This document shows, in pieces, positions 3,191 to 31,449 of a DNA stretch of 64,000 nt. The stretch is taken from the NCBI RefSeq assembly GCF_030284385.1, contig NZ_CP127221.1:434001-498000 (forward strand). Reading direction: 5' to 3'. The stretch comes from Altererythrobacter rubellus. GTDB lineage: Bacteria > Pseudomonadota > Alphaproteobacteria > Sphingomonadales > Sphingomonadaceae. The notes below the pieces were generated by a model. That model was not told where the DNA came from, did not search any database, and worked only from the letters and a program-made list of their open reading frames with translations. The first letter of the stretch is position 1, and every line of letters begins with the position of its first letter. A program made the position numbers and the translations under genes.

Positions 3191-3212
3191 CTTTCAATAA
3201 AATCCGTAAGGC

Positions 3213-3621: not shown

Positions 3622-3660
3622 ACAAAAGGGGGGCAGCCTTTAAGCCGGCCAGCCCCCTTG
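3622..3660 (-). terminator. Rho-independent terminator after the Asp-tail mini-protein
   Basis: On the minus strand a strong GC hairpin (GGGGGCTGGCC pairing imperfectly with GGCTGCCCCCC) is followed by TTTTG. It lies 24 bases past the stop of the 83-residue gene and ends that transcript. Confidence 0.65.
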
Positions 3661-3683
3661 TTTTGCGATCAAGACCAAGAGCC

Positions 3684-15090: not shown

Positions 15091-15734
15091 TGGGTCGGCC
15101 GCACTATCTTGTCATCGGTGCGGGCGGCCATGCGAGGGTTGTTGCCGATGCGCTCATTGCGGGCGGAGGTGAGGTGATCGCCTTCATCGACCGCGAGCCG
15201 GGCGCGGAGCTGCTCGGGCGCCCAGTGCTAAGCGAATCGCGCGATCTTGTGGAGTTCGACCGCGCGGCGATCCAGCTAGCGATCGGCGTCGGTGGAACGC
15301 GCGGCGGGGCGCCGGGCATCCTACGCGCGGGGCTGATCGAGCGCCTTTCGCGCGAGGGTTGGATGATTGCGGACGTGATCCATCCGGCGGCGGCGATATC
15401 GCCGAGTGCACGGTTGGGTGAAGGTGTCCAGGTATTGGCGCGCGCCGTGGTGCAGCCGAATGCGTTGATCGGCGACGGCACGATTGTAAATACTGCGGCG
15501 GTCGTTGAGCATGACGCGATCGTGGGCAGCCATTGCCACATCTCGATTGGCGCGATCCTGTCCGGCGGCGTCACCGTCGGCGCGAACAGTCATATCGGCG
15601 CGGGCGCGTGCATTCGCGAAGGCGTCACTATCGGGCGGGATGTCACCATTGGTATGGGAGCAGTCGTTCTTGGCGACTGTCCCGGCGGCTCGGTCTTTTT
15701 CGGAAATCCTGCACGCGAGGCCAATCGGACATGA
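15087..15734 (+). CDS. legH: NeuD/PglD-type acetyltransferase, probable LegH
   Basis: 215 residues: a small Rossmann-like N-terminus (HYLVIGAGGHARVVADALIA), a DREPGAELLGRPVLSE linker, then hexapeptide repeats of a trimeric left-handed beta-helix (ISPSARLGEGVQVLARAVVQ, NTAAVVEHDAIVGSHCHISI, GAILSGGVTVGANSHIGAGA). This is the PglD/NeuD fold, and in a Leg operon it is the expected C4-amino acetyltransferase (LegH). The order between legI and ptmE and the 4-bp overlaps at both ends support that role. An O-acetyltransferase acting on finished Leg is the alternative. Confidence 0.85.
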   Translation: MMGRPHYLVIGAGGHARVVADALIAGGGEVIAFIDREPGAELLGRPVLSESRDLVEFDRAAIQLAIGVGGTRGGAPGILRAGLIERLSREGWMIADVIHPAAAISPSARLGEGVQVLARAVVQPNALIGDGTIVNTAAVVEHDAIVGSHCHISIGAILSGGVTVGANSHIGAGACIREGVTIGRDVTIGMGAVVLGDCPGGSVFFGNPAREANRT

Positions 15735-16780: not shown

Positions 16781-17472
16781 AAGCCCGGGTCGCCGCTCTT
16801 ATAACTGCGAGGGGGGGCTCTAAGGGCCTACCAGGGAAGAACATCAGGCTTCTCGGCGGCAAGCCGCTTCTTGCGCACAGCATCGAAGTGGCGCTCCAGA
16901 GTTCGATGGTCGATGCAGTCTATCTTTCGACTGACAGCAGAGAGATCGCTGATTTGGCTCGTGCGCATGGTTGCGAGGTACCGTTCCTGCGCGCCGCAGA
17001 ACTTGCGACCGACGAGGCGACGTCGATCGACGTTGTATGTGATGCGCTCGACCGGTTGCCGCCGTATGAGATCTGGCTACTGCTGCAGCCAACTTCGCCG
17101 TTGCGTACGGCTGAAGATTTAGACGGCGTTGTCACAATGATGGAGCGGACTGGTGCATATAGCTGCGTGTCGGTGACCGAAGCGCAGGATCATCCATGGC
17201 TGACCTTTGCAATTGGCGACGATGGAGCGATGACGCGCTTCTGTTCCGACGATCCCATACACATGGCGCGGCGGCAGGACATGCCGCGTGCTTTTGTGCT
17301 TAACGGAGCGGTCTATGGTTTCCGACCCGACTGGCTACGGCGGGGACGGGTGTTTGTTGACGCCAAATCTTTGGCTTGGGTTATGCCCGCCGAACGATCG
17401 GTTGACATTGACGATCTGTGTGATTTCGAGCGGGCTGAAGCGTTATGGCTGACAGTTCATGGGTGCGACTAA
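16777..17472 (+). CDS. legF: CMP-legionaminate synthetase (NeuA family)
   Basis: Activates legionaminic acid with CTP to the CMP donor. 231 residues of the cytidylyltransferase family: ALITARGGSKGLPGKNIRLL, GKPLLAHSIEVALQSS, LSTDSREIADLARAHG, FLRAAELATDEATSIDVV, LLQPTSPLRTAEDLDG, NGAVYGFRPDWL, DIDDLCDFERAEAL. All NeuA landmarks are present. Last gene of the overlapping Leg run; it is followed by a 174-base gap with an inverted repeat before the first amidation set. Confidence 0.92.
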   Translation: MKARVAALITARGGSKGLPGKNIRLLGGKPLLAHSIEVALQSSMVDAVYLSTDSREIADLARAHGCEVPFLRAAELATDEATSIDVVCDALDRLPPYEIWLLLQPTSPLRTAEDLDGVVTMMERTGAYSCVSVTEAQDHPWLTFAIGDDGAMTRFCSDDPIHMARRQDMPRAFVLNGAVYGFRPDWLRRGRVFVDAKSLAWVMPAERSVDIDDLCDFERAEALWLTVHGCD

Positions 17473-17646: not shown

Positions 17647-18960
17647 ATGAAACTCACGCCCAGCAGCGCCGTCGATCTTTCGCGCTACAGTCGTCCGGCT
17701 CACGAACTCGAAACCTTCTACGGTCTGCCGCGAGATGTAAGATTTTGCGTCAAATGCAACATGTCGAACCAGCAGCCGATGTCGAGCAATGAGTATGAGC
17801 ATGGCGCGCACTCGATCAAAACGACATTAAGCTTCGATGACGAAGGCGTCTGCCACGCTTGTCGCTTCAACGCGTTAAAGCAAGATGGTGAAATCAATTG
17901 GGATGAGCGCGAGCGCGAACTGATCGAACTTTGCAACCAGCACCGCAGGACAGACGGCAGCTACGACTGCATTGTCGGCGGTAGCGGCGGCAAGGACAGT
18001 GCAATGCAATCGCACCTACTGAAATACAGATACGGTATGAACCCATTAACCGTCACGTGGTCGCCGCACCTTTACACAGACATCGGGTGGAAGAATTTCC
18101 AGAACTGGCTGCACGTCGGCGGCTTCGACAATTTTCTCTACACGCCTAACGGCAAGATCCACCGGCTGCTGACGCGCAACGCGACGATCAACATGCTGCA
18201 CCCTTTCCAGCCGTTCATTCTCGGCCAGAAGACCTTCGTTGCGAAGATGGCGGTGAAGCTCAACATTCCTTTGATCTTTTACGGCGAGATGCCCGGCGAA
18301 TATGGCGAGAAAGTCTCGCACAAGACGTCGAGCTACGCCGCCGGCTCGGACGAGGTGGAAAGCGAAGGCTACAAGCTCGACTATTTCGGTGGCAAGGATG
18401 TGCGCGACGTGCTTCTGGGTGGCAAGTCGGTCGGCGAATATCTGGACGAAGGCATCCAGCTCGCAGATCTGATGAGCTATCTTCCCATGGATGCCGAAAT
18501 CCTTGTCAAGAAGAACATCGACTGGAAGTATCTCGGTTACTATAAAAAATGGGTGCCGCAGGAGGCCTATTATTATGCTGTCGAACATACTGGCTTCGAG
18601 GCGAACCCGGTTCGCACCGAGGGCACTTATTCGAAGTACAACAGCCTCGACGACAAAGTCGATGGTTTCTTCTACTTCACGCGTTGGATCAAGTTCGGCG
18701 TCGGACGCGCAATGATGGACGCGGCGCAGGAAATCCGCAACCACCACATCACCAAGGAAGAAGGCCTTGCGCTGATGTCGCGTTATGAGGGTGAATATCC
18801 GGCGCGGTTCGAACGCGAATTTCTCGACTATATCGGCATGGCGCGGGAAGAATTCCTCGCACTGTGCGATACTTTCCGCTCGCCGCACCTATGGATGGTC
18901 GAGAATGGCGAATGGATGCTGCGCCACACGCCTTGGAAAAGGGGGGGGCAGCGCGCGTGA
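17647..18960 (+). CDS. N-acetyl sugar amidotransferase, set 1 (PseA/PtmG/WbpG family)
   Basis: Converts a sugar acetamido group to an acetamidino group, using ammonia supplied by the HisH-like partner. 437 residues: N-terminal cysteine pairs (VRFCVKCNMSNQQ; GVCHACRFN) that probably bind zinc, then a PP-loop ATP pyrophosphatase motif (CIVGGSGGKDSAMQSHLLKY), then HPFQPFILGQKTFVAKMAVK and YGEMPGEYGE. It is about 58 residues longer than the set 2 enzyme. Position right after the Leg operon makes legionaminic acid (to Leg5Am7Ac) the best substrate guess, by analogy with PtmG and PseA; this is inference. It overlaps the HisF-like gene by 4 bp. Confidence 0.85.
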   Translation: MKLTPSSAVDLSRYSRPAHELETFYGLPRDVRFCVKCNMSNQQPMSSNEYEHGAHSIKTTLSFDDEGVCHACRFNALKQDGEINWDERERELIELCNQHRRTDGSYDCIVGGSGGKDSAMQSHLLKYRYGMNPLTVTWSPHLYTDIGWKNFQNWLHVGGFDNFLYTPNGKIHRLLTRNATINMLHPFQPFILGQKTFVAKMAVKLNIPLIFYGEMPGEYGEKVSHKTSSYAAGSDEVESEGYKLDYFGGKDVRDVLLGGKSVGEYLDEGIQLADLMSYLPMDAEILVKKNIDWKYLGYYKKWVPQEAYYYAVEHTGFEANPVRTEGTYSKYNSLDDKVDGFFYFTRWIKFGVGRAMMDAAQEIRNHHITKEEGLALMSRYEGEYPARFEREFLDYIGMAREEFLALCDTFRSPHLWMVENGEWMLRHTPWKRGGQRA

Positions 18961-19715
18961 GCAACGTCCGCATTATCCCGCGGCTTGACATCAAGGGCCC
19001 CAACCTGATTAAGGGCATTCACCTTGAAGGGCTCCGCGTGATCGGCGATCCGCGCGAATATTCGCAGAAATATTACGCCGAAGGCGCGGACGAACTCCTC
19101 TATGTCGACATTGTAGCGAGCCTCTACGGCCGCAACAGCCTGCATGATATGGTCACTCGCGTTGCGGAGGATGTGTTTGTCCCGCTTACCGTCGCGGGCG
19201 GCATCCGTTCGGTCGACGACGTGCGGCAGATGTTGCGGTCGGGCGCCGACAAAGTCGCGATCAACACCGCAGCGACACACCGCCCTGAATTGCTTCGAGA
19301 GGCGGCCCAAGTTTTCGGCTCGCAATGTATCGTACTGTCGATCGAAGCGAAGCGGGTCGCTCCGGGCAAGTGGGAGGCCTATACCGACAATGGTCGCGAA
19401 AAGACGGGCCGCGATGTCGTCGACTGGGCGAGGCAGGCGGTCGAGCTCGGCGTCGGCGAAATCCTGCTGACCTCGGTCGACCGGGAGGGAACGCGCGCCG
19501 GCTTCGATCTCGATCTGGTTAACGCGGTGGCGTCATCCGTACCCATGACTCCGCTCATCGCCAGCGGCGGCATGGGCAAGCTCGAGGAAATGTCCCAAGT
19601 CGTCAATGGCGGCGCTTCGGCCATCGCCATCGCCGATATGCTTCATTACGGCCGTCAGACGCTCGGCACGGTCAAGGCGTCCGCACGGGACCAGGGACTA
19701 GAAGTACGGATATGA
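18957..19715 (+). CDS. HisF-like subunit of sugar amidation, set 1
   Basis: 252-residue beta/alpha barrel related to imidazole-glycerol-phosphate synthase cyclase. GTG 18957 overlaps the amidotransferase stop (GTGA) and gives the HisF-like N-terminus SNVRIIPRLDIKGPNLIKGI; the ATG at 18864 lies inside the previous gene and is rejected. Also seen: LRVIGDPREYSQKYYAEGAD, VPLTVAGGIRSVDDVRQMLR, GADKVAINTAA, TSVDREGTRAGFDLDLV, PLIASGGMG. The first catalytic Asp of HisF is kept (RLDI). It probably serves as scaffold and ammonia channel for HisH in sugar amidation rather than in histidine synthesis. Confidence 0.85.
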   Translation: MSNVRIIPRLDIKGPNLIKGIHLEGLRVIGDPREYSQKYYAEGADELLYVDIVASLYGRNSLHDMVTRVAEDVFVPLTVAGGIRSVDDVRQMLRSGADKVAINTAATHRPELLREAAQVFGSQCIVLSIEAKRVAPGKWEAYTDNGREKTGRDVVDWARQAVELGVGEILLTSVDREGTRAGFDLDLVNAVASSVPMTPLIASGGMGKLEEMSQVVNGGASAIAIADMLHYGRQTLGTVKASARDQGLEVRI

Positions 19716-20356
19716 TGACGAAGTCGGTTGCGATCGTGGACTATGGCGCCGGCAATTTGCTGAGCGTGCGCCGCGCATTCGAAAAGGTAGGCGCCACCGT
19801 CGCGCTGGCCTCGCGATTTGGCGATATTATGGATGCCGACTATCTGGTTCTGCCCGGCGTTGGAGCGTTCCGTGACGGCATGGCCGGCCTACGACAAAAC
19901 GGCCTCGACGAAGCAGTCCTGCGTTTCGCGGATGCCGGCAAACCGCTGCTCGGCATCTGCCTCGGCATGCAGATGCTGGCAAGCGAGAGCGAGGAATTCG
20001 GCAGCCACAATGGCCTCGACCTGATCCCCGGCAAGGTCCGCGCTATCCCCGCGGCCGGACGAGATGGACCGCTGCACAAGATACCCTTCATCGGCTGGGC
20101 TCGCCTCAATGCGTCGTATCCCGGTGCGTTCGAAGGCTCGCCGCTTGCTGGCCTTGGCGAGGATAGTTTCGTATATCTTGTCCACAGTTTCCATGTCGAA
20201 CCCGAAGATGCAAGAAACGCAAGCGCAACCTATGATTATGACGGGATTAAGGTGACGGCCGCCATCCAGAAAGCCAATATCTTTGGGTGTCAGTTTCACC
20301 CGGAAAAGAGCGGGCCGGTGGGGCTGCACATCCTCCGGTCTTTCCTGGAAAGCTGA
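19712..20356 (+). CDS. HisH-like glutamine amidotransferase, set 1
   Basis: Class I glutaminase of 214 residues that frees ammonia from glutamine for the neighbouring amidotransferase. Catalytic triad residues are visible: Cys in LLGICLGMQML, and His and Glu in GCQFHPEKSGPVG. The N-terminus VAIVDYGAGNLLSVRRAFEK and LPGVGAFRDGM match HisH. ATG 19712 overlaps the HisF-like stop. Together with the two preceding genes it forms a complete amidation set; the order here is amidotransferase, HisF, HisH, whereas set 2 is amidotransferase, HisH, HisF. Confidence 0.87.
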   Translation: MMTKSVAIVDYGAGNLLSVRRAFEKVGATVALASRFGDIMDADYLVLPGVGAFRDGMAGLRQNGLDEAVLRFADAGKPLLGICLGMQMLASESEEFGSHNGLDLIPGKVRAIPAAGRDGPLHKIPFIGWARLNASYPGAFEGSPLAGLGEDSFVYLVHSFHVEPEDARNASATYDYDGIKVTAAIQKANIFGCQFHPEKSGPVGLHILRSFLES

Positions 20357-20390
20357 CAACGATGCCCCGCATCGACCGCCGGGTTGCCGT

Positions 20391-21659
20391 ATGGGATTAA
20401 ACAAATTCCTCGGTCAGGGCACCATCTATCTTTTCGGGTCCATGCTGAGCGCCGCGGTGCCATTTCTGCTGCTGCCCTTTCTCGCGCGCTGGTTGGGGCC
20501 CGCCGATTTCGGTGTCGTCGGCAATTTTGTCTCGCTCGTTGGGGTGTTGGGCGCCGCGATCGGCCTCAGTACGCACGGCTACATCCCCGTCGCCTATTAT
20601 CGCGACGGGCCACAGAGTCTGGGGCAGGTCGTTGGCGGCGTCACTGGCATAAGCTTGATGGGGCTTGGGGGCGCGCTGTTCCTCGTCACGCTGTTCGGCG
20701 GGCCGATCGAGGCATTCAGCCTCATTCCCGCCGAATGGCTGTGGCTCGTTGCACTCGCGGCGGCCGGGCAGTTCCTGATCGCGGCCGCGCTTGCGGTATT
20801 CCAGACGCTGCAAAGGCCTTGGGCCTATATCACGCTGCAAATCAGCTATGCCGCGCTGCTCAGCGCGTTATCGGTGGCCCTGATCCTGTTCACCAAGTTC
20901 GGCTGGGAAGGGCGCGCGATGGGACAGGTTATCGCGGTTTCGCTCGTCGTCGCTGTCGCCTTTCTTTACCTCAGCGTCCGTATTCCGATCGATTGGCGCC
21001 CGTCCTACTGGCCGCTGCGTAAGCTGCTGCGTTTCGGCGCCCCGCTGCTGCCGCACGCAATGGCCGCGATCGCGATGGCGAGCATGGACCGCTTCATACT
21101 GACCTCAGTCGAGGGGGCGCGGCAACTCGGTTTCTATGTCGCGGCGGCTCAGATCGCATCCCTGGTCATTATGGCCGCGACCGCGGGCAACCAGGCATGG
21201 CTGCCTTGGCTCTATGGCAGACTGGCGGCGAACAGCGACACAGCCGACCGCGAGTTGGTGCGCATGACCTATCTCGTATTTGCCTGTCTGCTCGCTACCG
21301 CGCTGGGGCTGATCCTGATCACGCCCTGGCTGATGCCGTTCGTCGCGGGGTCGCAGTTTGTCGGCGCAGTGCCGCTGCTACGCTTACTCGCGCTCGCGAC
21401 TGCAATGAACGCAGCCTATCTCTTCGTCGCGGCGCACCTTTTCTACCATGAGCGGACTGGTCTGCTGTCGGTTGTATCGCTGACGGCGGCAGTCTTTCAA
21501 TTCGCCGTCACCTATGTGCTAGGCAAATGCCTCGGGGTAGAAGGCGTCGCTGGGGGAACAGCAATCGGAGCACTCTTTTATTGGTTGCTGACTTGGACGG
21601 TTGCGGCAAGGCAGCGTCCTTTACCGTGGTTCCGGGCGCTCCGCTCTTTTCGACATTAA
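20391..21659 (+). CDS. wzx: Oligosaccharide flippase (Wzx family)
   Basis: 422 residues with about 12 membrane helices spread over the whole length, starting GLNKFLGQGTIYLFGSMLSA, with the N-terminal LARWLGPADFGVVGNFVSLV typical of polysaccharide-specific MOP-type transporters. It should carry the finished lipid-linked repeat unit across the inner membrane. ATG 20391 is chosen because the membrane domain begins at once; the frame open from 20283 overlaps the HisH gene. It is the only flippase candidate in the window. Confidence 0.87.
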   Translation: MGLNKFLGQGTIYLFGSMLSAAVPFLLLPFLARWLGPADFGVVGNFVSLVGVLGAAIGLSTHGYIPVAYYRDGPQSLGQVVGGVTGISLMGLGGALFLVTLFGGPIEAFSLIPAEWLWLVALAAAGQFLIAAALAVFQTLQRPWAYITLQISYAALLSALSVALILFTKFGWEGRAMGQVIAVSLVVAVAFLYLSVRIPIDWRPSYWPLRKLLRFGAPLLPHAMAAIAMASMDRFILTSVEGARQLGFYVAAAQIASLVIMAATAGNQAWLPWLYGRLAANSDTADRELVRMTYLVFACLLATALGLILITPWLMPFVAGSQFVGAVPLLRLLALATAMNAAYLFVAAHLFYHERTGLLSVVSLTAAVFQFAVTYVLGKCLGVEGVAGGTAIGALFYWLLTWTVAARQRPLPWFRALRSFRH

Positions 21660-21783
21660 CCTTTGTAGACAGGCCATATGGGCAACATCCCATCCGAAAA
21701 ACAGGAGCTTCAATGCCTTTACGCCAAATCTCATCGCCGAGCCAATGATGCCTAAAGCGGAAAAATCTACGGTCCAGGCTCGT
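21660..21783. other. Gap between wzx and IS relic
   Basis: Contains a 25-codon open frame (ATG 21678) that ends at the edge of the IS relic and could be the 5' stub of an interrupted gene; no family is recognisable. Nothing else is seen. Confidence 0.3.
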
Positions 21784-22300
21784 TCAGAGCCAGAATGCGA
21801 CGGCGGCGGCGAGGCTTACGGCTGATAGGAAGTTTCTGGCGAGTTTGTCGTATCGTGTTGCGACACGGCGGAAGTCCTTGAGGCGGCAGAACATGGTCTC
21901 CACGCGCCAGCGGTCCTTGTAGCGGCGTTCGTCATACTGAACCGGGCGCTTGCGGTCGTTCGGCCCCCGGCGAGCTCCTAATGGCATTGGCCCGCGCCCA
22001 CCTTTCGCGCCACCGGCAAAACGGGGGGCCTCGACGTAGCTGCTGTCGATCTGCCCGGTTTCGGCAAGCCAGCCTTCCTCGGTCAGAGCCACAAGGATAC
22101 CAGTCCAGATGCCCCGTCGGCTCCAACGGTTCCAGCCATTATAGACCGTCTTCGAAGGACCGTATTCCGAGGGGCAATCGGCCCAGCGGCCACCGCACTT
22201 GAGCATGTGAATGATGCCAGAGATCACCCGCTGGTCATCAACCCGTCGCGCTCCAGGCTGGTTCTTCGGCAAGTGCGGCTCGATCGCAGCCGGCGCAAGC
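21784..22300 (-). pseudogene. IS5-family transposase, internally deleted
   Basis: The frame keeps the N-terminal part (IEPHLPKNQPGARRVDDQRV, CGGRWADCPSEYGPSKTVYN, WNRWSRRGIWTGILVALTEE, GQIDSSYVEAPRFAGGAKGG) and the C-terminal part (YDERRYKDRWRVETMFCRLK, DFRRVATRYDKLA) of an IS5-type transposase. The middle is gone: the next residues after GGAKGGRG jump to the NDRKRPVQYDE part, removing roughly 70 residues with the central DDE aspartate. It cannot be active. GC-rich imperfect repeats near 21775 (GGCTCGTTCAGAGCC) and 22317 (GGCTCCTGAGCC) may be remains of the ends. The upstream extension to 22407 has no transposase similarity. Confidence 0.8.
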
Positions 22301-22406
22301 GATTTAAGGGCTCCTGAGCCTAGCGGTGCCGTATCAATACTCTCATGAAAAAATGCTGAGCCGCTGAGCGAGCGGCTGAGCAGCACTTCGCAAGGACCAA
22401 TGGGCA

Positions 22407-23942
22407 ATGAATGCTTCCGATCGACCGCTGTCGTCTGATCTTATGAGCGCACTCGCCGCTATCGAGTCCGAGTTTCCAGTCCTCGAATGGTCCTGCGAGG
22501 GGATCGCGATATGGCCGTTACTGCGAGTACGGTGGGCGTTTTCAGAATGGGCAAGGCATTACACGGCACCGCTGGGCGCAACCAATATGAACCCAGCGCT
22601 AAAACTGCTCCGAACTGTCGTGCTCGGACCAATTGAAGCGGCGAGGGCAAACAGCAAAGACCTAAAATGGACTGGGTCCGCCTCGGATAGGCGGGATATA
22701 TTATTCCTTTCAAGTGGCGTTTCATTTACGAAAATCGATACAAGTTGGGTGGAGCGCTTTTGCGACCCCATGATCTCGAACGCAAGAGATTTGGGTTTAA
22801 CAAGCGCTATGCTTACTCCCGGTAACTTGTATCATCGACCACGCTATTCACCATCTTATTTCATCCAGCCTGCACTCGACCGCGCCAATTTATTTGGCGG
22901 AGTACGGTCAATATTTCGCTCTGTTCGTGCCCATTTACCTCAGCATTCGGAGGTCCTTAGGTGCTTGGAGGAACGAGGCTTAGGCACCGCTAGTATGAGC
23001 ATAAGGAAGATACATTCTGATACCCAACGCTTGAAATCTTTGTGTGTGTATTACGAGCGGCACGTGCATCGGATCAGGCCTCGCATCGCAGTTATGGTCA
23101 GTTATTATGGGTTGGAAGGGATGGCTTTCGTTCTTGCTTGTCGAAAAAACGCTGTGCCGGTTATTGAAGTCCAGCACGGCGTTCAAGGCGAGATGCACCC
23201 TGCATATGCTGCCTGGCCCAGCCCACAAGACGGAAACGCTCATATGCTGTTGCCCGATTTTTTTTGGGTTTGGTCCGAATGGGAAGCCTCTGTCATTGGA
23301 CGATGGGCAAGTGGAACATCTCACCACACAATCATTGGCGGCAATCCATGGAATGAAATTTGGAGCGATGGATCACGTTGGGGCGGTGTTGGCGAGGCGC
23401 TTTTGTCGGCTCGCACACTAAAGGACCGCTCCAAGGGTAAGCCGATCGTGCTTGTGACGCTGCAGTATGGGTTCGCACCTGAGCAACAGCTGCTACCCTT
23501 GGCCCAACTCATGCGGCTCGCTTCTAGTGAGATGGCATTTTGGGTTCGATTGCATCCCAGCATGCATATGCGGCGAGCAGAGATCCGCGAATTGCTGGCA
23601 TCGTCAGGCGAGTTCGAATTAGACTACGCAACAGACATCCCGCTACCTGCGCTACTACAATACGCAGATGTACATCTGACACACAGTTCAAGCTCAGTAA
23701 TAGAAGCTGCGCAAGCTGGTGTTCCATCGGTCCTGACAGCAACTTACGGAGCAGAAATATTTTATCCACTCCTCGAGTCCGGTGTGGCACGGCTGGAGAC
23801 TGGGAATGCACAAGCCGTTGCTTCAGCACTGATAAATATGGCTGCTCAAAGGCATTCTCGGCGAAGTAACGTGTATGGTTCAAACGAACAATTAAAAAAA
23901 TGTTTTCAATTTATTTATAGTACAAATCAATCAAATAATTGA
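22407..23942 (+). CDS. Glycosyltransferase-like protein, candidate legionaminyl transferase
   Basis: 511 residues, no firm family. The C-terminal half looks like a GT-B sugar transferase: AVPVIEVQHGVQGEMHPAYA resembles the His-Gly region of capsule and sialyl-type transferases, FWVRLHPSMHMRRAE follows, and YADVHLTHSSSSVIEAAQAG with VPSVLT is the donor-site Ser/Glu pattern seen in CMP-sugar and CDP-polyol transferases. The N-terminal half is unrecognised. It lies downstream of the Leg genes and no other gene in the cassette fits transfer from CMP-Leg, so that role is a reasonable guess. Base composition drifts towards AT near its 3' end. The start at 22407 has AAGGA about 12 bases before it. 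Confidence 0.6.
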   Translation: MNASDRPLSSDLMSALAAIESEFPVLEWSCEGIAIWPLLRVRWAFSEWARHYTAPLGATNMNPALKLLRTVVLGPIEAARANSKDLKWTGSASDRRDILFLSSGVSFTKIDTSWVERFCDPMISNARDLGLTSAMLTPGNLYHRPRYSPSYFIQPALDRANLFGGVRSIFRSVRAHLPQHSEVLRCLEERGLGTASMSIRKIHSDTQRLKSLCVYYERHVHRIRPRIAVMVSYYGLEGMAFVLACRKNAVPVIEVQHGVQGEMHPAYAAWPSPQDGNAHMLLPDFFWVWSEWEASVIGRWASGTSHHTIIGGNPWNEIWSDGSRWGGVGEALLSARTLKDRSKGKPIVLVTLQYGFAPEQQLLPLAQLMRLASSEMAFWVRLHPSMHMRRAEIRELLASSGEFELDYATDIPLPALLQYADVHLTHSSSSVIEAAQAGVPSVLTATYGAEIFYPLLESGVARLETGNAQAVASALINMAAQRHSRRSNVYGSNEQLKKCFQFIYSTNQSNN

Positions 23943-24269
23943 AAGATTTTTATAAAAATCCGATAGCATTGCCATATTTTCTATGATGTGTAGGCGCGTG
24001 CGAGGTTGTGATCTGATTGGCTTCGCACGACTGTGTCTCACGGCCGCCGTGTCGAGTGACGGTGATGATGGCGTGTCAGCGCAGCTTTTCCGATTTATCG
24101 TGTCGTTATGGGGCGCTAATTGCAGCGGGCGATCCGTTGGAGTGGCTTGTTGGCTGTGGCGGTTTCCGAGGCGGTCTGCGGCCTGATGGTGTCAGTGTCG
24201 CGGCGAAGCGATAGCGGCAAGAGGAATCGGCCACCATTCGCCTCAGTGATGATTTTCAGGTTCAGGGGC
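23943..24269. other. Decayed sequence without a gene
   Basis: Starts AT-rich, then turns GC-rich, with short open frames in all phases that show no family features. It is probably the eroded 5' part of the IS5 relic that follows, because the recognisable transposase frame begins at about 24270 without its N-terminal domain. Confidence 0.5.
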
Positions 24270-25010
24270 TGCGGCCACGGTGTGGCTGTTCCGACAGGAA
24301 CTCCTAAAGGCCGAGACAATCGGCAAGCTCTTCGCCCGCTTCGATACAGCATTGACGGACCGCCTTTTTGTGGTGATGGGCCGCCATCTCATCAATAAGA
24401 CTGAGATGTCTGGTGCAAAGCGGCACATTATCGAGGACGAGAATGCCGAACTCAAACAGGGCAATGTCCGTGAACGCTGGAAGGAGATGTATGCCAAGGT
24501 CCGCCAGAAGGACCGCGAGGCGCGGAGGACGGTCAAATGCGCCGAAGGCAAGGTGAAGGAGGGGGCCGATTTCAAAGCGTTCAAGCCAGCGGATCTTTCC
24601 TTCGAGATGATTGGCTGCAAAACCACATCGACAGCGATGCCTTCGTGAGTTAATTCACATGCGGGACGCCCATGCTGCCAATGCATTATGACGAGGCGCG
24701 GCTCCTTGGTCTCATCAGCAATCGGGGCGCCGAGGAGCGTGTTGGCCGACACTGCATACCAATCAAAGAAGAACGAGGCCTTCATCGGGCGCGGCATGTT
24801 CGAGAGCCATATCCATCATACGCTAATGAGCCGCTTACAACTGCTGAAGCGTACCGCCCGAGGCACTGCAAAACATTCCGCGGCGCGCTTGGCGGCCGGG
24901 CAGAAAGCACCGCGCGGGCCCTTTCATCAGCACCATCGGTATCGCCTACTAGCTATTGACATCAAGGCGGTCAGCATGGCCTATAACTTTCAACCTCACG
25001 CATGAGGCGA
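24270..25010 (+). pseudogene. IS5-family transposase (second type), frameshifted
   Basis: A degraded transposase of a different IS5 subgroup from the relic at 21784. Frame 1 holds TVWLFRQELLKAETIGKLFA, RFDTALTDRLFVVMGRHLIN, KMYAKV-like and RQKDREARRTVKCAEGKVKE, and stops at 24648 after GCKTT where GYKNH is expected. The next frame continues with VLADTAYQSKKNEAFIGRGM and ESHIHH, and a third shift gives IKAVSMAYNFQPHA, the normal C-terminal end. At least two frameshifts and a missing N-terminus make it non-functional. Confidence 0.75.
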
Positions 25011-25343
25011 TGGCGAGGCGTGCGCGAGCATAAGCCGAAAACGGCGTGCAGGCCGGCGCTACTACGAAGAAACTCAAGGCAAGCGGGCCCAAAAGGCCAA
25101 TTCCACACTCAAAGACTGTTATCCGATCCCTCGCGACGCCTTCATGTCGAGAATAGCCGGATCTTTGAGGTATCGAACTAATGCTCTGCCGCCAGCCAAA
25201 TTTCATCAACCCTTTCCTTGATACTGGCAACGATCGAACTACCGATCCCATGTGCAGAAGCCTTCGAGAAATTTTGGAAGGGGATCAATATTTGACAAAG
25301 CGGAATTCCAGATTCAAAATATTAGGCTGAACAGGATTATAAA
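25011..25343. other. Gap before the AT-rich membrane gene
   Basis: No credible gene. The first part may be the eroded downstream end of the IS5 relic; the last 80 bases become strongly AT-rich and probably carry the promoter and ribosome-binding region of the gene at 25344. Confidence 0.4.
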
Positions 25344-26459
25344 ATGGGACAAAAATTCATTCAGCGTGATCTAAAAACCAATCAATTCATCATGCCAATT
25401 GTATTGGGCGCCATTCTTTTCTTTATGGGATCCATTTTTTTAAAAACAGTCGGATATGATGCAATTTTTAATAATAGTTTCTTTCAATTTTTTGCAGATT
25501 CAAATACCTATCACGAACTATATGAAACAAAGTCATATGACGTCGCATCTCTTATAGGCGTGCAAAATAACCTTGTCGGGCCCTTATTAATTTTATCAAT
25601 AGCGCAAGGAAATTTATACGCGGTTCTTTTTCAAAATATAATTATTTTTATTGCATCTATTATTCTTATTTGTAAATCATATTCCATCAACACTTCAAAA
25701 ACTGCAATATTGATATTATTGCTTTCTCCAATGATGGTTTCATCATTATTGTCTGTAAACAAAGAAATTATTTCTTTTCTTGTGATATCAATAATAATTT
25801 ACTCATTGAGGTTCCAAAAAGTACAATATTTTGCCATAGCCTTAATTATTTCATTGATGGTACGGTGGCAAATGAGTGCTTTTTGTATATTACTGGCCAT
25901 TGCAGTATTGTTAAAAAATTATAGACGCGTTTATTTCACATTACTTATGTTAATTTTGTTATCATTAATATTTTATTATTCCCAGAGTTTTTTGTCTCCG
26001 GTGCTGGATAGAGTCGATTTTTACAATCTCCAATACACCGATGGTAGTGGGGTTTTTGAGGCGCTCGGAGAATTACAGAAGAATGGATTTTATTTTATTG
26101 TTTCAGCACTAAAGGCCGCCCACCTATTATTTTCAATGGGTACAAAGTTATCACAAATTATTAATCCATATAACTTTTACAACGACACAATTCAAGGACT
26201 CCACAGCCTCTCGAACATATTTTTATTTTTTTTACTCTTGGTAAGACGTAAAATAGATATAAATAACGATCTCATTTTTATATCTATTATATACTGTGCA
26301 GTGTTCTGTCTTACTCCAGTGTATGCTCCAAGGTATTTATTTCCGGTAACAATTTTGTGGATCCTTGCGCTTATTGTCGACAAGTCCAAGGCTGACATCC
26401 TATTCAATGGGCAGAGTGTGGTCACAGGACGCTGTCGCCTTCCTGCGTCCGCTCAGTAG
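25344..26459 (+). CDS. wzy: AT-rich polytopic membrane protein, candidate O-antigen polymerase (Wzy)
   Basis: 371 residues, about ten hydrophobic segments, e.g. FIMPIVLGAILFFMGSIFL, NIIIFIASIILICKS, TAILILLLSPMMVSSLLS, VYFTLLMLILLSLIFYYS and a large periplasmic-type loop at about 215-275. Wzy proteins share little sequence, so the call rests on topology, size and position with wzx. Base composition and codon use (AAT, ATA, TTA, TTT) are strikingly different from both neighbours, indicating separate origin. The last about 15 codons return to GC-rich sequence (VVTGRCRLPASAQ) and are probably read-through past a junction near 26395, so the natural C-terminus may be lost. Confidence 0.65.
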   Translation: MGQKFIQRDLKTNQFIMPIVLGAILFFMGSIFLKTVGYDAIFNNSFFQFFADSNTYHELYETKSYDVASLIGVQNNLVGPLLILSIAQGNLYAVLFQNIIIFIASIILICKSYSINTSKTAILILLLSPMMVSSLLSVNKEIISFLVISIIIYSLRFQKVQYFAIALIISLMVRWQMSAFCILLAIAVLLKNYRRVYFTLLMLILLSLIFYYSQSFLSPVLDRVDFYNLQYTDGSGVFEALGELQKNGFYFIVSALKAAHLLFSMGTKLSQIINPYNFYNDTIQGLHSLSNIFLFFLLLVRRKIDINNDLIFISIIYCAVFCLTPVYAPRYLFPVTILWILALIVDKSKADILFNGQSVVTGRCRLPASAQ

Positions 26460-26496
26460 TTTGCGCCGCTTGGCCCCGTCAGAAAAAGATTTGGTG

Positions 26497-27786
26497 ATGC
26501 TCCGACCCTGTGCCCCTATCCCTGAGTGCCAACCAAACTTGCGTGTTCTAATCATAGATGGTGTCGGTCTGTTCGGCGGTGCCTCGCGAAGCTTGTTCGA
26601 ATCGATGCGCGGCTTTCGCGAGCCGGTTGAGCGCCTCTTCTTCGTTCAGAAGGGGACTGCGAACGCCTATTACCGTCCCTATGGCCGTGACATGATCGCG
26701 GTGCGCGGCATCACCCGTTTCGACAATTCGCGCGCGTCGCACTATCGCGGTGTGCGATGGCTCGTTCTCGGACGAGAGCTCGCATATCTGCCCTCGACGA
26801 TCCTAGGCCTTCTGAAGGCGAAGCTCCGCTGGCGATCGGTCGACCTAATCCACGTCAATGAAGTGACGGAGATTTTTCCGGGCCTACTAGCGAAATTCTT
26901 ATTTCGCGCGCCGATGATCGTCCATGTCCGCTCGCTCATCTGGAACGACCGATCGAAGCTGCGGGTCAGGATTCTCGACCGGCTGCTGCACCGCTATGCC
27001 GATGCGGTCGTTGCGATCGACGAGGACAATCGCGTCCGGTTCGATCCGGCGTTGAATGTTGAGGTCATTCACAACAGTCTCGATTACAAGAATATGCCGC
27101 CGGGCAGCGACGTTCCTACCGATGCACTTGCGCAAATTCCTGCTAAGGCTTTCGTCGTCGGCTTCATTGGCAATCTGCACGCGGGCAAGGGCGTGTTCGA
27201 GCTGCTCGAAGCAGCCGATCTTGTCCGCAAGGCGGGGGCGAATATCCATTTCTTGATCGTCGGCAGCTCAGAACGTTCGGACAGGGGGCTGGTTTGGTCG
27301 GTGTTGAACCTGCTTGGGCTAGCTCAGGAGCAGCAATCGGCCTTCGTCGCGAAGCTCGAGGAAAAGAATTTGACCTCCTGTTTCCATTTCGCCGGCCACA
27401 CCGCCAATATCGCCCCTTGGATCGAGGCAATGGATGTCGTGGCCTTTCCGTCGCATTTCGATGCGTGCGGGCGCCCAGTGTTTGAGGCAGCCTTCTTCGG
27501 CCGGCCCAGCATCGTCGCGCTATCTTCGCCGAAGGACGATACGCTGCAAGACGGGGTCACGGGGATTGCGATCGAACGCCCCGATCCGCGGCTACTTGCC
27601 GATGCCATCCTCACGATGGCGGCAGATCCCGAGCGGACCCGTAAGCTGGGTGAGGCGGCGCGCAAACTTGCCCATGCAAACTTCACGCCGGAGGTCAATT
27701 CGCAGAAACTGCTCGATCTCTACAAGCGCGTCGCCGCCGGGCAAACCCAGCCAGATCGCGAACCATCCGATCGTTCGTCATTGTGA
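26497..27786 (+). CDS. Family 4 glycosyltransferase (GT-B)
   Basis: 429 residues from ATG 26497. N-terminal domain: NLRVLIIDGVGLFGGASRSL, LIHVNEVTEIFPGLLAKFLF, APMIVHVRSLI, DAVVAIDEDNR. C-terminal donor domain: FVVGFIGNLHAGKGVFELLE, HFLIVGSSER, FAGHTANIAPWIEAMDVVAF, PSHFDACGRPVFEAAFFGRP (Glu-x7-Glu type), LGEAARKLAHANF. It transfers a nucleotide-sugar residue to the lipid-linked acceptor on the cytoplasmic face; donor unknown. The open frame reaches back to 26365 into the previous gene, and the first 132 bases of it are out of family, so the internal start is preferred. Confidence 0.85.
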   Translation: MLRPCAPIPECQPNLRVLIIDGVGLFGGASRSLFESMRGFREPVERLFFVQKGTANAYYRPYGRDMIAVRGITRFDNSRASHYRGVRWLVLGRELAYLPSTILGLLKAKLRWRSVDLIHVNEVTEIFPGLLAKFLFRAPMIVHVRSLIWNDRSKLRVRILDRLLHRYADAVVAIDEDNRVRFDPALNVEVIHNSLDYKNMPPGSDVPTDALAQIPAKAFVVGFIGNLHAGKGVFELLEAADLVRKAGANIHFLIVGSSERSDRGLVWSVLNLLGLAQEQQSAFVAKLEEKNLTSCFHFAGHTANIAPWIEAMDVVAFPSHFDACGRPVFEAAFFGRPSIVALSSPKDDTLQDGVTGIAIERPDPRLLADAILTMAADPERTRKLGEAARKLAHANFTPEVNSQKLLDLYKRVAAGQTQPDREPSDRSSL

Positions 27787-27837
27787 CCTCACTAAGCCCC
27801 AGCTAAGGGCAGTGTTTGCAAGTTTTGGAGTTGATTT

Positions 27838-28977
27838 GTGCCTTTAATACCTTACCAAATTTGCCAGAATTGTATAATGGACACGAGTGACTCCCTGATC
27901 GCGTTCGACGAGCGGGGGTGGTGCGATTATTGCAATAATTATCACGAAAACATAGTGCCTTACTGGCATACCGACGAACGCGGCGAACGCGAGGTCATGG
28001 CCCAAATCGACAAGATCAAGGCCGACGGCAGAGGGCGTGATTTCGATTGTCTGATCGGCCTGTCAGGCGGTATCGACAGTAGCTATCTGACCTACATCGC
28101 AAAGGAGAAGTTCGGCCTACGCCCTCTACTTTATCACGTCGACGCCGGCTGGAATTCCCAAGAGGCAGTCAATAATATCGAAAAGTTGGTCGATGGACTG
28201 GAGCTTGACCTTTACACTGAAGTCGTGAACTGGCCAGAAATGCGAGACCTGCAGCTTGCATTCTTTAAGGCAGGAGTGCCACACCTCGACACACCTCAGG
28301 ATCATGCCTTCTTTGCTGGGCTATATAATTTTGCTGCAAAAAATAAGGTGAAGTATATCCTCACGGGGGCAAACTACTCGACAGAGTGCGTGCGTGAGCC
28401 GCTCGAATGGCATTATCACGCTTCCGATCTGAGGCAATTGCACGACATCCACCGCCGTTTTGGAACGCGTCCCTTGAAATCGTTCCCGCTAGCCGGGATC
28501 CTAAAATTTAAAGTCTTCTATCGGTTCGCAAAAGGCGTGCGGGTGATTAAGCCTCTCAACTACATTCCTTATTACAAGGAAGCGGCAATGCAGGAACTCG
28601 TGCAACGTTTTGGATGGCAGCGTTATCCGCACAAGCACTATGAGTCCCGCTTCACTCGATTCTACGAAGGGTTCTGGTTGCGGAAGAAATTCGGTTACGA
28701 CAAGCGTCGCGCCCATTTTTCCAGCCTGATCCTGACCGGACAACTAAGTCGGGCAGAAGCGCTCGAGCGGATCGCTCAGGACCCTTATTCTCCTGAGCAG
28801 GTAAAGCAGGACTTCGAGTACATTGCGGCCAAGCTTGGCATAACCGAAGCTGAACTGCAGGCCATGTTCGATGCACCAAACAAAACCTATCGCGACTATG
28901 CGAACATGATGCCGGTGATGGACCTCGGCGCCAAGGTGTTCCGTGTTCTTGGTCTCCAGCGAGCGGTGATGCGTTGA
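27838..28977 (+). CDS. wbuX: N-acetyl sugar amidotransferase, set 2 (WbpG/WbuX)
   Basis: 379 residues, typical WbpG/WbuX length. Cysteine pairs YQICQNCIMDTSD and GWCDYCNNY near the N-terminus, PP-loop DCLIGLSGGIDSSYLTYIAK, then PLLYHVDAGWNSQEAVNNIE, LDTPQDHAFFAGLYNFAAK, ILTGANYSTECVREPLEWHY, PLNYIPYYKEAA, KHYESRFTRFYEGFWL. It starts with GTG 27838. The gene order that follows (hisH-like, hisF-like, fnlA, fnlB, fnlC, wbuB) is that of E. coli O145-type clusters making L-FucNAm, so it probably amidinates L-FucNAc. The stop overlaps the next start. Confidence 0.9.
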   Translation: MPLIPYQICQNCIMDTSDSLIAFDERGWCDYCNNYHENIVPYWHTDERGEREVMAQIDKIKADGRGRDFDCLIGLSGGIDSSYLTYIAKEKFGLRPLLYHVDAGWNSQEAVNNIEKLVDGLELDLYTEVVNWPEMRDLQLAFFKAGVPHLDTPQDHAFFAGLYNFAAKNKVKYILTGANYSTECVREPLEWHYHASDLRQLHDIHRRFGTRPLKSFPLAGILKFKVFYRFAKGVRVIKPLNYIPYYKEAAMQELVQRFGWQRYPHKHYESRFTRFYEGFWLRKKFGYDKRRAHFSSLILTGQLSRAEALERIAQDPYSPEQVKQDFEYIAAKLGITEAELQAMFDAPNKTYRDYANMMPVMDLGAKVFRVLGLQRAVMR

Positions 28978-29588
28978 TCCACGTCGTCGATTATGGGCTC
29001 GGGAATGTTGGCGCATTCCTCACGCTCTACAAAAGATTGGAGATACCCGCGATCGCGGCGACCACATCGACGGAGTTGGTAGGCGCTGATCACATCCTTT
29101 TACCGGGGGTAGGATCCTTCGATCATGCGATGCGGTCGTTGAATGCGTCTGGCATGCGTGAAACGCTAGATCGTCTCGTGGTCGAACAGAAGGTTCCAGT
29201 CTTGGGCGTTTGCGTGGGGATGCAGATTCTCGGTGATAGCAGCGATGAGGGGCGCGACGCCGGTCTTGGTTGGATTTCTGGAAGCATTCGGGATCTGGCC
29301 GGGCGAGGGGCGGCTCATAATGGACTCCCGCTCCCACATATGGGGTGGAACGATGTTCAACCTCAAGGGAATGTGCCATTGCTCGCGGGGATCCCCGACC
29401 CACGTTTCTATTTTCTGCACAGCTTCTACTTCGAAAATCGTGATGCGGCGGACGCAACCGCGACTGTGGAGTATGGTGCTCAGTTCACCTGTATGGTGAA
29501 CCGAGGCAATGTATGGGGGGTGCAGTTCCATCCAGAAAAGAGCCACCGGTATGGAATGGCACTCCTGAAAAACTTCGCGGAGCTCTGA
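28974..29588 (+). CDS. wbuY: HisH-like glutamine amidotransferase, set 2 (WbuY)
   Basis: 204 residues. TTG 28974 overlaps the previous stop (TTGA) and yields the HisH start MIHVVDYGLGNVGAFLTLYK; no ATG fits better. Catalytic Cys in VLGVCVGMQILGDSS, catalytic His and Glu in GVQFHPEKSHRYGM, and oxyanion region LPGVGSFDHAMRSL are intact. Supplies ammonia to the sugar amidotransferase. Only distantly similar to the set 1 HisH, which argues against recent duplication of the set. Confidence 0.9.
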   Translation: MIHVVDYGLGNVGAFLTLYKRLEIPAIAATTSTELVGADHILLPGVGSFDHAMRSLNASGMRETLDRLVVEQKVPVLGVCVGMQILGDSSDEGRDAGLGWISGSIRDLAGRGAAHNGLPLPHMGWNDVQPQGNVPLLAGIPDPRFYFLHSFYFENRDAADATATVEYGAQFTCMVNRGNVWGVQFHPEKSHRYGMALLKNFAEL

Positions 29589-29590
29589 GC

Positions 29591-30370
29591 ATGCTTCGTC
29601 CGCGCATCGTACCCTGCTTGCTGGTTCACGAGGGAGGGCTTGTGAAAACCGTGCGCTTCAATGATCCCACCTACGTCGGTGATCCCATCAACGCAGTGCG
29701 GATATTTAACGAGAAAGAAGTCGATGAACTGGTCGTTCTTGATATTGATGCGACAGCAAAGAGCGTTGAACCCGACTTCAATCTGATCGGAAACCTCGCT
29801 GCAGAATGCCGGATGCCTCTTTGTTATGGTGGCGGCATCACATCTGTTGCTCAAGCCAAAAGAATTATCAGCTTAGGTGTCGAAAAAGTGGCGCTCAGCG
29901 CATCCGCTGTCGCAAATCCGGCGTTGGTATCTGAAATTTCTGCTGAGATCGGACGTCAATCGACGGTTGTGGTTCTTGACGTCCGCAAGCGGACGTTTGG
30001 AGGCCGATATGATGTTTATACGCACAATGGTACCATCAAGACCGGCTTATCGGCCTTGGATTTCGCTAAAGAATTGGAAGTGCGCGGCGCCGGCGAGATT
30101 GTTTTCAATTCGATCGATCGGGACGGAACGACCAAAGGATACGATCTGGATCTAGCGCGCCAGCTGCGCGCGGCGGTTAATGTGCCCATTAGCATGGTTG
30201 GCGGCGCGGGCAGCCTCGAAGACATTGAAGAATTAATTTGTGAAGTTGGCGTGCTCGGCGCTATTGCTGGCAGTCTCTTTGTTTTCAAAGGAAAGTACCG
30301 GGCGGTGCTTATCAACTACCCTCAGCCAGATCTAAAAGAACAATTGGTTCTTCGTTCACTTAAGAAGTAG
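29591..30370 (+). CDS. wbuZ: HisF-like subunit of sugar amidation, set 2 (WbuZ)
   Basis: 259-residue barrel beginning at ATG 29591, two bases after the HisH stop. The N-terminus RPRIVPCLLVHEGGLVKTVR shows Leu-Val where HisF has the catalytic Asp (CLDV), as in the WbuZ/HisF2 branch, so it should not cyclise the histidine intermediate. Further: YVGDPINAVRIFNEKEVDEL, CYGGGITSVAQAKRIISLGV, VVLDVRKRTFGGRYDVYTHN, SIDRDGTTKGYDLDLARQLR. It most likely holds WbuY and channels ammonia to WbuX. Confidence 0.9.
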   Translation: MLRPRIVPCLLVHEGGLVKTVRFNDPTYVGDPINAVRIFNEKEVDELVVLDIDATAKSVEPDFNLIGNLAAECRMPLCYGGGITSVAQAKRIISLGVEKVALSASAVANPALVSEISAEIGRQSTVVVLDVRKRTFGGRYDVYTHNGTIKTGLSALDFAKELEVRGAGEIVFNSIDRDGTTKGYDLDLARQLRAAVNVPISMVGGAGSLEDIEELICEVGVLGAIAGSLFVFKGKYRAVLINYPQPDLKEQLVLRSLKK

Positions 30371-30408: not shown

Positions 30409-31449
30409 ATGACTGACAAAATTTTCTCCGACCGCACTCTGCTGATCACCGGCGGAACGGGATCATTCGGCAATGCGGTTCTGCGGCGGCTTCTGGACTC
30501 CAGCCTGAAGGAGATCAGAATCTTCAGCCGGGATGAAAAAAAACAGGATGACATGCGCAAGCACTTCAACAATCCAAAGCTGAAGTTTTATATCGGCGAT
30601 GTGCGAGATTACGCATCTGTCGTGAATGTCGTGCGTGGGGTTGACTTTATTTTTCACGCTGCGGCACTCAAGCAGGTCCCTTCATGTGAGTTTTATCCAC
30701 TAGAAGCCGTAAAGACAAACGTTCTGGGCACCGAAAACGTGCTTGAGGCTGCGATTAATTGTGGAGTTAAGCGCGTTATCTGCCTCAGTACGGACAAAGC
30801 CGTCTACCCCATCAATGCCATGGGTATCTCTAAGGCTATGATGGAGAAAGTGGCCGTCGCTAAATCCCGCAGCAGCGAAAACACCGTCATCTGTGCTACC
30901 AGATATGGCAATGTCATGGCCTCGCGCGGCTCGGTCATTCCTCTCTTTGCCAACCAGCTGCGAGCCGATAAGCCGATCACCATCACAGATCCAGAAATGA
31001 CCCGGTTTATGATGACCTTGGACGATGCGGTCGAATTGGTTCTTTATGCTTTCAGGCATGGCAAGCCCGGTGAAATATTCGTTCAAAAGGCTCCTGCAGC
31101 GACCATCTCGACCTTGGCCAAGGCAATGTGCCAGATGTTGGGTAAAACAGCCCATCCGATCAATGAAATCGGCACAAGGCATGGCGAAAAATTGTTCGAA
31201 GTTTTGCTAAGCCGCGAGGAAATGGCAGCGGCCGAAGACCTCGGTGAATATTTTTGCGTCTCCCCGGATCTGCGAGATTTGAACTACGAAAAATTCGTGG
31301 ATCAAGGGGAGCGAAGCATCTCGCTGGCGGAGGATTACAATTCGCATAATACGACTCGACTCGATCTGAAGGGCATGGAGTCGTTGCTGCTGAAGCTACC
31401 GTTCATGCGTGCCATGGTGGCAGGCCAATACATCTCACCGGAGGACTGA
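30409..31449 (+). CDS. fnlA: UDP-GlcNAc 4,6-dehydratase/5-epimerase, L-FucNAc pathway
   Basis: First enzyme of UDP-L-FucNAc synthesis. 346 residues of the CapD/FnlA short-chain dehydrogenase type: LLITGGTGSFGNAVLRRLLD, FSRDEKKQDDMRKHFNNPKL, YIGDVRDYASVVNVVRGVDF, FHAAALKQVPSCEFYPLEAV, LSTDKAVYPINAMGISKAMM (catalytic Met-x3-Lys type centre), RYGNVMASRGSVIPLF, ITDPEMTRFMMTLDDAVELV, RHGEKLFEVLLSREEM. Separated from the amidation set by 38 bases and followed 1 base later by fnlB. Confidence 0.93.
   Translation: MTDKIFSDRTLLITGGTGSFGNAVLRRLLDSSLKEIRIFSRDEKKQDDMRKHFNNPKLKFYIGDVRDYASVVNVVRGVDFIFHAAALKQVPSCEFYPLEAVKTNVLGTENVLEAAINCGVKRVICLSTDKAVYPINAMGISKAMMEKVAVAKSRSSENTVICATRYGNVMASRGSVIPLFANQLRADKPITITDPEMTRFMMTLDDAVELVLYAFRHGKPGEIFVQKAPAATISTLAKAMCQMLGKTAHPINEIGTRHGEKLFEVLLSREEMAAAEDLGEYFCVSPDLRDLNYEKFVDQGERSISLAEDYNSHNTTRLDLKGMESLLLKLPFMRAMVAGQYISPED

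Follow-up and report, generated by a model that had tools for sequence, protein, structure and literature searches.

Why would one polysaccharide cluster carry two complete gene sets for the amidination of N-acetyl sugars? The question is raised by a 64,000-nt stretch of the Altererythrobacter rubellus genome (GCF_030284385.1, contig NZ_CP127221.1, positions 434,001 to 498,000; the window, numbered here from its first letter). An original prediction had placed two sets there, each with an amidotransferase, a HisH-like and a HisF-like protein, and had assigned one set to each of two sugars, legionaminic acid (Leg) and N-acetyl-L-fucosamine (L-FucNAc). We consider this the best explanation, at a probability of about 0.75: set 1 would lead to the 5-acetamidino sugar Leg5Am7Ac and set 2 to L-FucNAm, the amidino form of L-FucNAc, as two independent modules of one Wzx-dependent cluster. 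This reading rests on gene content, family membership, tree positions, synteny and residue signatures.

Two amidination sets beside two sugar pathways

Set 1 spans 17647-20356 and set 2 spans 27838-30370, and all six reading frames are intact:

17647..18960, +, set 1 N-acetyl-sugar amidotransferase, LpNASAT type (437 aa; TIGR03573, 308 bits, cut-off 203.2)
~18954..19715, +, set 1 HisF-like subunit, predicted ammonia channel (D11 kept, D130 replaced by E; start 18954 chosen by us, frame open from 18864)
19712..20356, +, set 1 HisH-like glutaminase (TIGR01855, 190 bits; motifs GICLGM and QFHPEKS)
27838..28977, +, set 2 N-acetyl-sugar amidotransferase, WbuX type (379 aa; TIGR03573, 296 bits, cut-off 203.2)
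28974..29588, +, set 2 HisH-like glutaminase, WbuY (TIGR01855, 206 bits)
~29591..30370, +, set 2 HisF2/AglZ-type subunit, predicted ammonia channel (NF038364, 366 bits, cut-off 310; D11 replaced by L, D130 kept; start 29591 chosen by us, frame open from 29513)

The two predicted sets were thus present as six open frames with matches to the expected family models, and the difference in amidotransferase length (437 versus 379 aa) and in gene order (amidotransferase-HisF-HisH in set 1, amidotransferase-HisH-HisF in set 2) was confirmed. Both HisH proteins exceeded the TIGR01855 cut-off in the profile search. The set 1 HisF exceeded the cut-off of no model among 25 of the 26 listed (best WbuZ, TIGR03572, 279/300 bits, and hisF, 269/295 bits); with 195 bits against a cut-off of 310 for NF038364, it passed neither the AglZ/HisF2 nor the WbuZ model. 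A tetracysteine zinc motif and an SGGxDS PP-loop were retained in both amidotransferases: Cys34/37/69/72, with a 31-residue spacer, and SGGKDS at 113 in set 1, and Cys9/12/29/32 and SGGIDS at 76 in set 2.

The genes of the two sugar pathways, found by profile search, lay where they had been predicted, the Leg genes before set 1 and FnlA, FnlB and FnlC after set 2:

10634..11653, +, LegB, NAD-dependent 4,6-dehydratase (TIGR04180, 528 bits, cut-off 475)
11655..12854, +, LegC aminotransferase (TIGR04181, 487 bits, cut-off 420)
12848..14023, +, NeuC/LegG UDP-sugar 2-epimerase (TIGR03568, 407 bits, cut-off 236)
14002..15090, +, NeuB/LegI nonulosonate synthase (TIGR03569, 444 bits, cut-off 400)
15090..15734, +, NeuD/LegH acetyltransferase (TIGR03570, 201 bits, cut-off 161; searched as 15030-15734)
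15722..16780, +, nucleotidyltransferase, presumably PtmE-like, a name taken from gene position, with an N-terminal stretch like the KpsF/GutQ regulatory part (all models under cut-off)
16777..17472, +, CMP-nonulosonate cytidylyltransferase, LegF/NeuA (TIGR03584, 150 bits, under the PseF cut-off of 206)
20391..21659, +, Wzx flippase (PF01943, 44 bits, cut-off 28)
30409..31449, +, FnlA (TIGR04130, 612 bits, under the cut-off of 730; 74% identical to E. coli O145 FnlA)
31454..32557, +, FnlB/WbcJ reductase (NF047837, 566 bits, cut-off 500)
32561..33691, +, FnlC 2-epimerase (TIGR00236, 227 bits, cut-off 210; 70% identical to the O145 protein)
33701..34894, +, GT4-type glycosyltransferase, perhaps the L-FucNAm transferase (in the same place as the O145 GT4, 33% identical to it; 61% in Undibacterium and Vogesella)

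In each set, HisH would free the ammonia of glutamine. A HisF-type barrel, in which one of the two catalytic aspartates of the histidine pathway is missing, would pass it on, and the PP-loop amidotransferase would use ATP to turn an N-acetyl into an N-acetimidoyl group, a product predicted for either enzyme from its family membership. The target of set 1 would be the 5-acetamido group of CMP-Leg5Ac7Ac, yielding Leg5Am7Ac, and that of set 2 the L-FucNAc formed by FnlABC, yielding L-FucNAm. The substrates, the position of the amidine and the route of the ammonia are our inference, as is the idea that the two sugars share a repeat unit. Acetimidoyl methyl groups are reported to give NMR signals near 2.2/20 ppm (PMC9912281).

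The two amidotransferases belong to different clades

A careful tree was built from 78 amidotransferases over 389 columns, with support given as bootstrap/SH-aLRT (Shimodaira-Hasegawa-like approximate likelihood ratio test); it omits four of the 68 sampled amidotransferases (long or odd branches) and 25 of the 37 rows of a scan of named genomes, which covered the best 80 relatives of set 1. Locus L121 was used in place of L103 from the same genome. Matches that scored below the cut-off were excluded, as were G209:C2, which has one stop, and L120, in which no open frame was recognised. Gene neighbours served to label the clades, with the enzymes of E. coli O145 and Legionella as references. The original prediction had named the grouping of both enzymes in one branch as a result that would speak against it; instead, they fell on opposite sides of a 100/100 split, 37 rows with set 2 and 41 with set 1, each with its expected sugar pathway. 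Set 1 lies in a 27-row clade (100/99) shared with two Legionella enzymes, and set 2 in a 17-row clade (100/100) that includes the E. coli O145 enzyme; within the latter, set 2 belongs to a seven-row subclade (99/92) in which FnlB stands beside seven of seven members, the window's own included. A quick tree of 107 rows agreed.

The Legionella pneumophila enzyme LpNASAT, whose structure is solved (8WEX), matched set 1 with 488 bits (E = 2.8e-145) and set 2 with only 29 bits. Its segment 55-69 is described as missing from other members of the family (PMC10607449). The 31-residue spacer in the zinc motif was found in all 21 rows of the set 1 subclade, against a spacer of 16-18 in the other 55 rows read (two rows were unread). 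Set 1 thus has the features of the LpNASAT subgroup, namely a place in the Legionella clade, an insertion between the cysteine pairs and adjacent Leg5Ac7Ac genes.

Gene neighbours were counted for the 64 amidotransferases in the tree out of the 68 recognised in the order and phylum sample loci, which had not been chosen by their neighbours; the p-values (Fisher) overstate the case, as the rows are related and the subclade had been seen before testing. A NeuB homologue lay within 12 kb of 24 of 33 enzymes on the set 1 side versus 3 of 31 on the other side (p = 2.3e-7), one of these three being in genome G560, which also has a Leg-type set. A NeuC homologue lay within the same distance of 15 of 19 members of the 27-row clade versus 1 of 45 enzymes outside it (p = 3.6e-10). 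FnlB (at least 50% identity) was similarly close to 7 of 13 members of the 17-row clade versus 1 of 51 outside (p = 2e-5), and to six of six sampled members of the seven-row subclade versus 2 of 58 outside (p = 3.7e-7). In addition, all 14 relatives of 78-84% identity to set 1 among the best 80, including those of Brevundimonas, Pseudomonas, Roseateles, Undibacterium and Massilia, had NeuB, NeuC and LegC homologues beside them.

Synteny pointed the same way for set 2, whose amidotransferase is 56% identical to that of E. coli O145. The O145 cluster runs acetyltransferase, neuB, cytidylyltransferase, neuC, wzx, wzy, one gene, amidotransferase, hisH, HisF2, fnlA, wbjC, wecB, GT4, so that the stretch from the amidotransferase through HisH, HisF2, fnlA, fnlB and fnlC to GT4 has the identical order in the window. 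Unlike the window, the O145 locus has neu genes, a single amidination set in the 21 kb shown, and is a lipopolysaccharide (LPS) O-antigen cluster. By its grouping with O145 WbuX, the adjacent fnlABC and the shared order, set 2 corresponds to WbuXYZ, for L-FucNAm. A 2008 paper, judging by its title, reportedly found wbuX of O145 and lfnA of Pseudomonas aeruginosa O12 to be required for FucNAm expression in the O antigen. WbuX of E. coli O145 has been described as involved in L-FucNAm synthesis, and the Legionella O-chain as containing 5-acetamidino Leg (PMC10607449, PMC3766260).

Some findings weigh against one set per sugar. The CMP-transferase and FnlA score below the curated cut-offs of their best models. 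Six of the 13 sampled members of the wider set 2 clade lack FnlB within 12 kb (one lies at a contig end), and the wider clade is therefore not bound to FucNAc. A close dual case, a Sphingosinicella metagenome-assembled genome (MAG), combines set 1 with a 60% identical set 2 enzyme and has no FnlB over the cut-off in its genome. It is accordingly conceivable, though unlikely, that the substrate of set 2 is not FucNAc but another sugar, for instance one made by two genes upstream of the Leg genes, as has been reported for WbpG acting on ManNAc3NAcA:

8648..9952, +, UDP-sugar 6-dehydrogenase, WbpA-like (TIGR03026, 410 bits, cut-off 190)
9969..10637, +, hexapeptide acyltransferase, labelled by us WbpD-like (PF00132, 71 bits; relatives in two other dual cassettes)

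This alternative gains from the FnlB-free members of the wider clade and from the recurrence of the two genes in other dual cassettes (66% and 62% identity in G470; the acyltransferase, 68%, in Undibacterium). It is opposed by the FnlB genes flanking every member of the closest subclade and by the synteny with O145; moreover, GFO_IDH_MocA, the domain that carries out the WbpB step, has its only match in the genome 0.3 Mb from here, at C1:758285. The recurrence of the 8648-10637 genes also hints at a shared third, acidic sugar.

The split between the amidotransferases confirmed the original view that the sets are not a recent duplication: they belong to separate tree clades, have HisF partners of two lineages, and share 30% identity over only 164 aa (blastp E = 1.3e-9), which ruled out a recent copying of one set. 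It might still be supposed that both act on the same sugar, or that a composite cluster carries one of them as redundant or decaying cargo. A transposase gene of the IS4/5 insertion-sequence family, or a remnant of one, is found between the sets (21784-22407, -), after the flippase gene and before the next open reading frame (ORF), and tandem amidotransferases with a single HisF/HisH pair do exist, as in locus L087 of G521, where two enzymes of the set 1 side have a single HisF and a single HisH between them over the 20 kb covered. However, the six genes of the window are open with intact motifs, and the sets belong to different clades with a HisH and HisF of their own, so that we regard this possibility as very improbable.

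Each set has a HisF partner with a different lost aspartate

The catalytic aspartates of HisF are those at positions 11 and 130 (Thermotoga numbering). Both are present in 1h5y and in the genome's housekeeping HisF (329 bits, cut-off 294.55; 0.4 Mb from the cluster), while the set 1 HisF has D/E and the set 2 HisF L/D. Neither therefore has the aspartate pair of an imidazole glycerol phosphate synthase HisF, and their active sites differ, as had been noticed originally. The HisFs with 50% or more identity to the set 1 protein, drawn mostly from the scan aimed at set 1, numbered 78. D11 was kept in 76 of them, position 130 being Glu in 66 and Gln in 10; the others were N/E and gap/E, and none was D/D. 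The 17 HisFs nearest to it but below 50% were mixed (7 L/D, 3 D/Q, 2 I/D, 2 D/D, and one each of E/E, D/E and T/P), and those nearest the set 2 HisF were L11/D130 in 33 of 33 cases.

A 64-row HisF tree placed 22 of the 24 partners of the 27-row amidotransferase clade in a single 22-row clade (100/100; 18 D/E, 2 D/Q, 1 E/E, 1 D/D). The two exceptions, L094 and L100, were L/D and fell in the other HisF clade of 39 (98/96), where the hexosamine-side partners were L/D in 31 of 31 cases; joining these two to the Leg type was weakly rejected by the approximately unbiased test (p-AU 0.039). The two other full dual cassettes, in G470 and Undibacterium, contain the HisFs with which that of set 1 grouped (100/95). 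A constraint of the Leg-type HisF together with the housekeeping HisF was not rejected (p-AU 0.457), and a joint clade of both partner types had support of 85/59 with three long-branch HisFs left out. Because different aspartates were lost in the two lineages, these data suggest that the cyclase function was lost twice, separately. As a rule, the signature has its limits: of the 24 HisFs of the Leg-type clade, two were L/D, one D/D and one E/E, and the six other nonulosonate-side HisFs were L/D (3), I/D (2) or T/P (1). As the latter vary, the signature marks the main Leg type rather than all nonulosonates.

The pairing of a Leg-type and a FucNAm-type set is uncommon

A genome was counted by hand as dual when one of its contigs had two amidotransferases over the cut-off no more than 25 kb apart; the window's genome is included each time. 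The order sample (196 genomes, 18 positive) contained 4 such genomes, the phylum sample (398 genomes, 41 positive) 6, and the class sample (385 genomes, 78 positive) 15, among them G759, where one gene is split between two matches. Two amidotransferases within 25 kb are thus common. Of 23 distinct dual genomes, 20 had two of one kind, and a set-1-like enzyme was paired with a set-2-like one in three (the window's, G470 and G560), with pairs typed by best BLAST match, as were the 14 class-sample pairs, rather than by tree; fnl genes were found in the window's genome and G470. One Bacteroidetes MAG (L163, G585) had seven over-cut-off amidotransferases, five of them within about 44 kb.

The pairing was nevertheless not unique to the window. 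Undibacterium curvum (L125/L217) and the alphaproteobacterial G470 (L089/L222/L223) likewise have Leg genes, set 1, Wzx, set 2 and fnlABC. The U. curvum set 2 groups with O145 and is 56% identical to that of the window. In G470, set 1 adjoins LegC (35%), NeuD, NeuC, NeuB (43%) and NeuA; its amidotransferase is 44% identical to that of the window and, unlike it, without the insertion, and no match to LegB or to PtmE was found in the G470 stretches. Among the 14 close set 1 relatives, five (L123, L125, L127, L132, L133; only 10-kb flanks for L126) had a second amidotransferase within 15 kb; of these, U. curvum had fnlABC beside a WbuX-clade set and Vogesella indigofera beside a more distant set. 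Two further loci, L128 (Hydrogenophaga) and L130 (Pseudomonas maioricensis), had Leg genes, set 1 and fnlABC with a single amidotransferase match per genome; their hosts are predicted to keep plain FucNAc, which makes them natural comparators to the dual cassette. The pairing in one cluster thus appears uncommon, recurring in a few other bacteria.

Other known systems share parts of this arrangement. Two Legionella species besides the source of LpNASAT, which itself shares the enzyme and its insertion with set 1, have the HisF/HisH partners and Leg genes, but over the 21 kb covered their loci (L157, L182) contain a single set, and fnl genes are absent. An 8-epi-Leg is reportedly combined with FucNAm, with a single amidine, in P. 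aeruginosa O12 and Salmonella arizonae O61. The flagellin of Campylobacter coli VC167 is reported to bear two acetamidino sugars, PseAm and Leg5Am7Ac, on one surface structure (PMC3958885); there, in contrast, both are nonulosonates on protein, and no 6-deoxyhexosamine is involved. Cluster B of Sphingomonas sp. LM7, described as a cluster for a cell-surface-associated polysaccharide, has a WbuX-family amidotransferase, HisF2 and HisH, with one set named in the table of that report, unlike the two in the window (PMC11340318). In searches restricted to open-access papers we found no polysaccharide bearing both amidino sugars, which does not show that none has been published.

The product is probably not an LPS O-chain

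The cluster had been called an O-antigen cassette, a label that now appears doubtful. The host genome (2.30 Mb in one contig, given as 99.99% complete) contained no match to lpxC or to the Kdo-transferase domain PF04413 (Kdo, 3-deoxy-D-manno-oct-2-ulosonic acid), with E. coli and Caulobacter controls positive, and lpxC was found in none of 99 sampled genomes of the order (host included; 85 at least 90% complete). The genome thus lacks matches for the lipid A synthesis and Kdo transferase that would accompany an LPS O-antigen cluster. Sphingomonads have been reported to carry sphingolipids in place of LPS (PMC11165598). The region also has three genes on the minus strand:

832..1716, -, Wza-type polysaccharide export protein (PF02563, 81 bits)
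1560..2954, -, Wzy/WaaL-type ligase or polymerase (the genome's only PF04932 match)
4473..5777, -, polyprenyl-phosphate sugar-phosphate transferase (PF02397, 207 bits)

Because lpxC and PF04413 were unmatched, sphingolipids reportedly replace LPS in sphingomonads, and the only PF04932 protein lies near a Wza-type exporter, a cell-associated or exo-polysaccharide is the likelier product, although the polymer may be attached to another lipid. The original prediction of cationic groups at the surface calls for a change: each amidine would be positively charged, but given the carboxylate of Leg and the UDP-sugar 6-dehydrogenase encoded in the cluster, the polymer would be expected to be zwitterionic rather than cationic.

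The location of these export genes (832-5777), apart from the plus-strand cluster, might also mean that the two sugars enter two different polymers rather than one repeat unit, which would be compatible with one set per sugar. We hold this to be the less probable arrangement, though one with a real chance: the flippase gene is flanked by the two sets, U. curvum and G470 show the same succession of Leg genes, set 1, Wzx, set 2 and fnl, and E. coli O145 unites a nonulosonate locus, a set of the set 2 type and fnlABC in one cluster.

Remaining genes and origin of the cluster

Two ORFs between the sets matched no family over cut-off, one of 511 aa (22407-23942) and one of 371 aa (25344-26459) in a low G+C stretch (0.43 over 25501-27000); that they encode a glycosyltransferase and a polymerase is a guess. 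A NUDIX-type protein (34898-35656) ends the cluster, and a phage-type integrase gene (35653-36597, -) follows its last gene directly. No tRNA gene that might serve as an insertion site was found within the 64-kb window. None of the ten same-genus genomes listed had an amidotransferase match. Given this absence, the integrase after the cluster and the transposase between the sets, it is likely that the cluster was assembled horizontally.

Implications

What is new here is the pairing and the HisF residue signature; the parts themselves are known. The assignment of one set to each sugar found good support in the tree, synteny and neighbours, and at the level of sequence the substrates remain predictions. 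We tentatively combine these results in a broader proposal, to which we would give somewhat less than an even chance, of a two-amidine zwitterionic polymer (Leg5Am7Ac and L-FucNAm) on a lipid-A-free envelope, together with a two-residue rule for set type, in which the HisF of the main Leg type is disabled at D130 and that of the hexosamine type at D11. Such a rule would allow a call, from sequence, of which acetamidino sugar a cluster probably makes. For A. rubellus a polysaccharide with two amidines is predicted, and other cultured two-set hosts can be named, U. curvum and, with a more distant second enzyme, V. indigofera. For the HisF family, the two lineages suggest that one metabolic barrel was made, probably, into a mere ammonia carrier in two ways.

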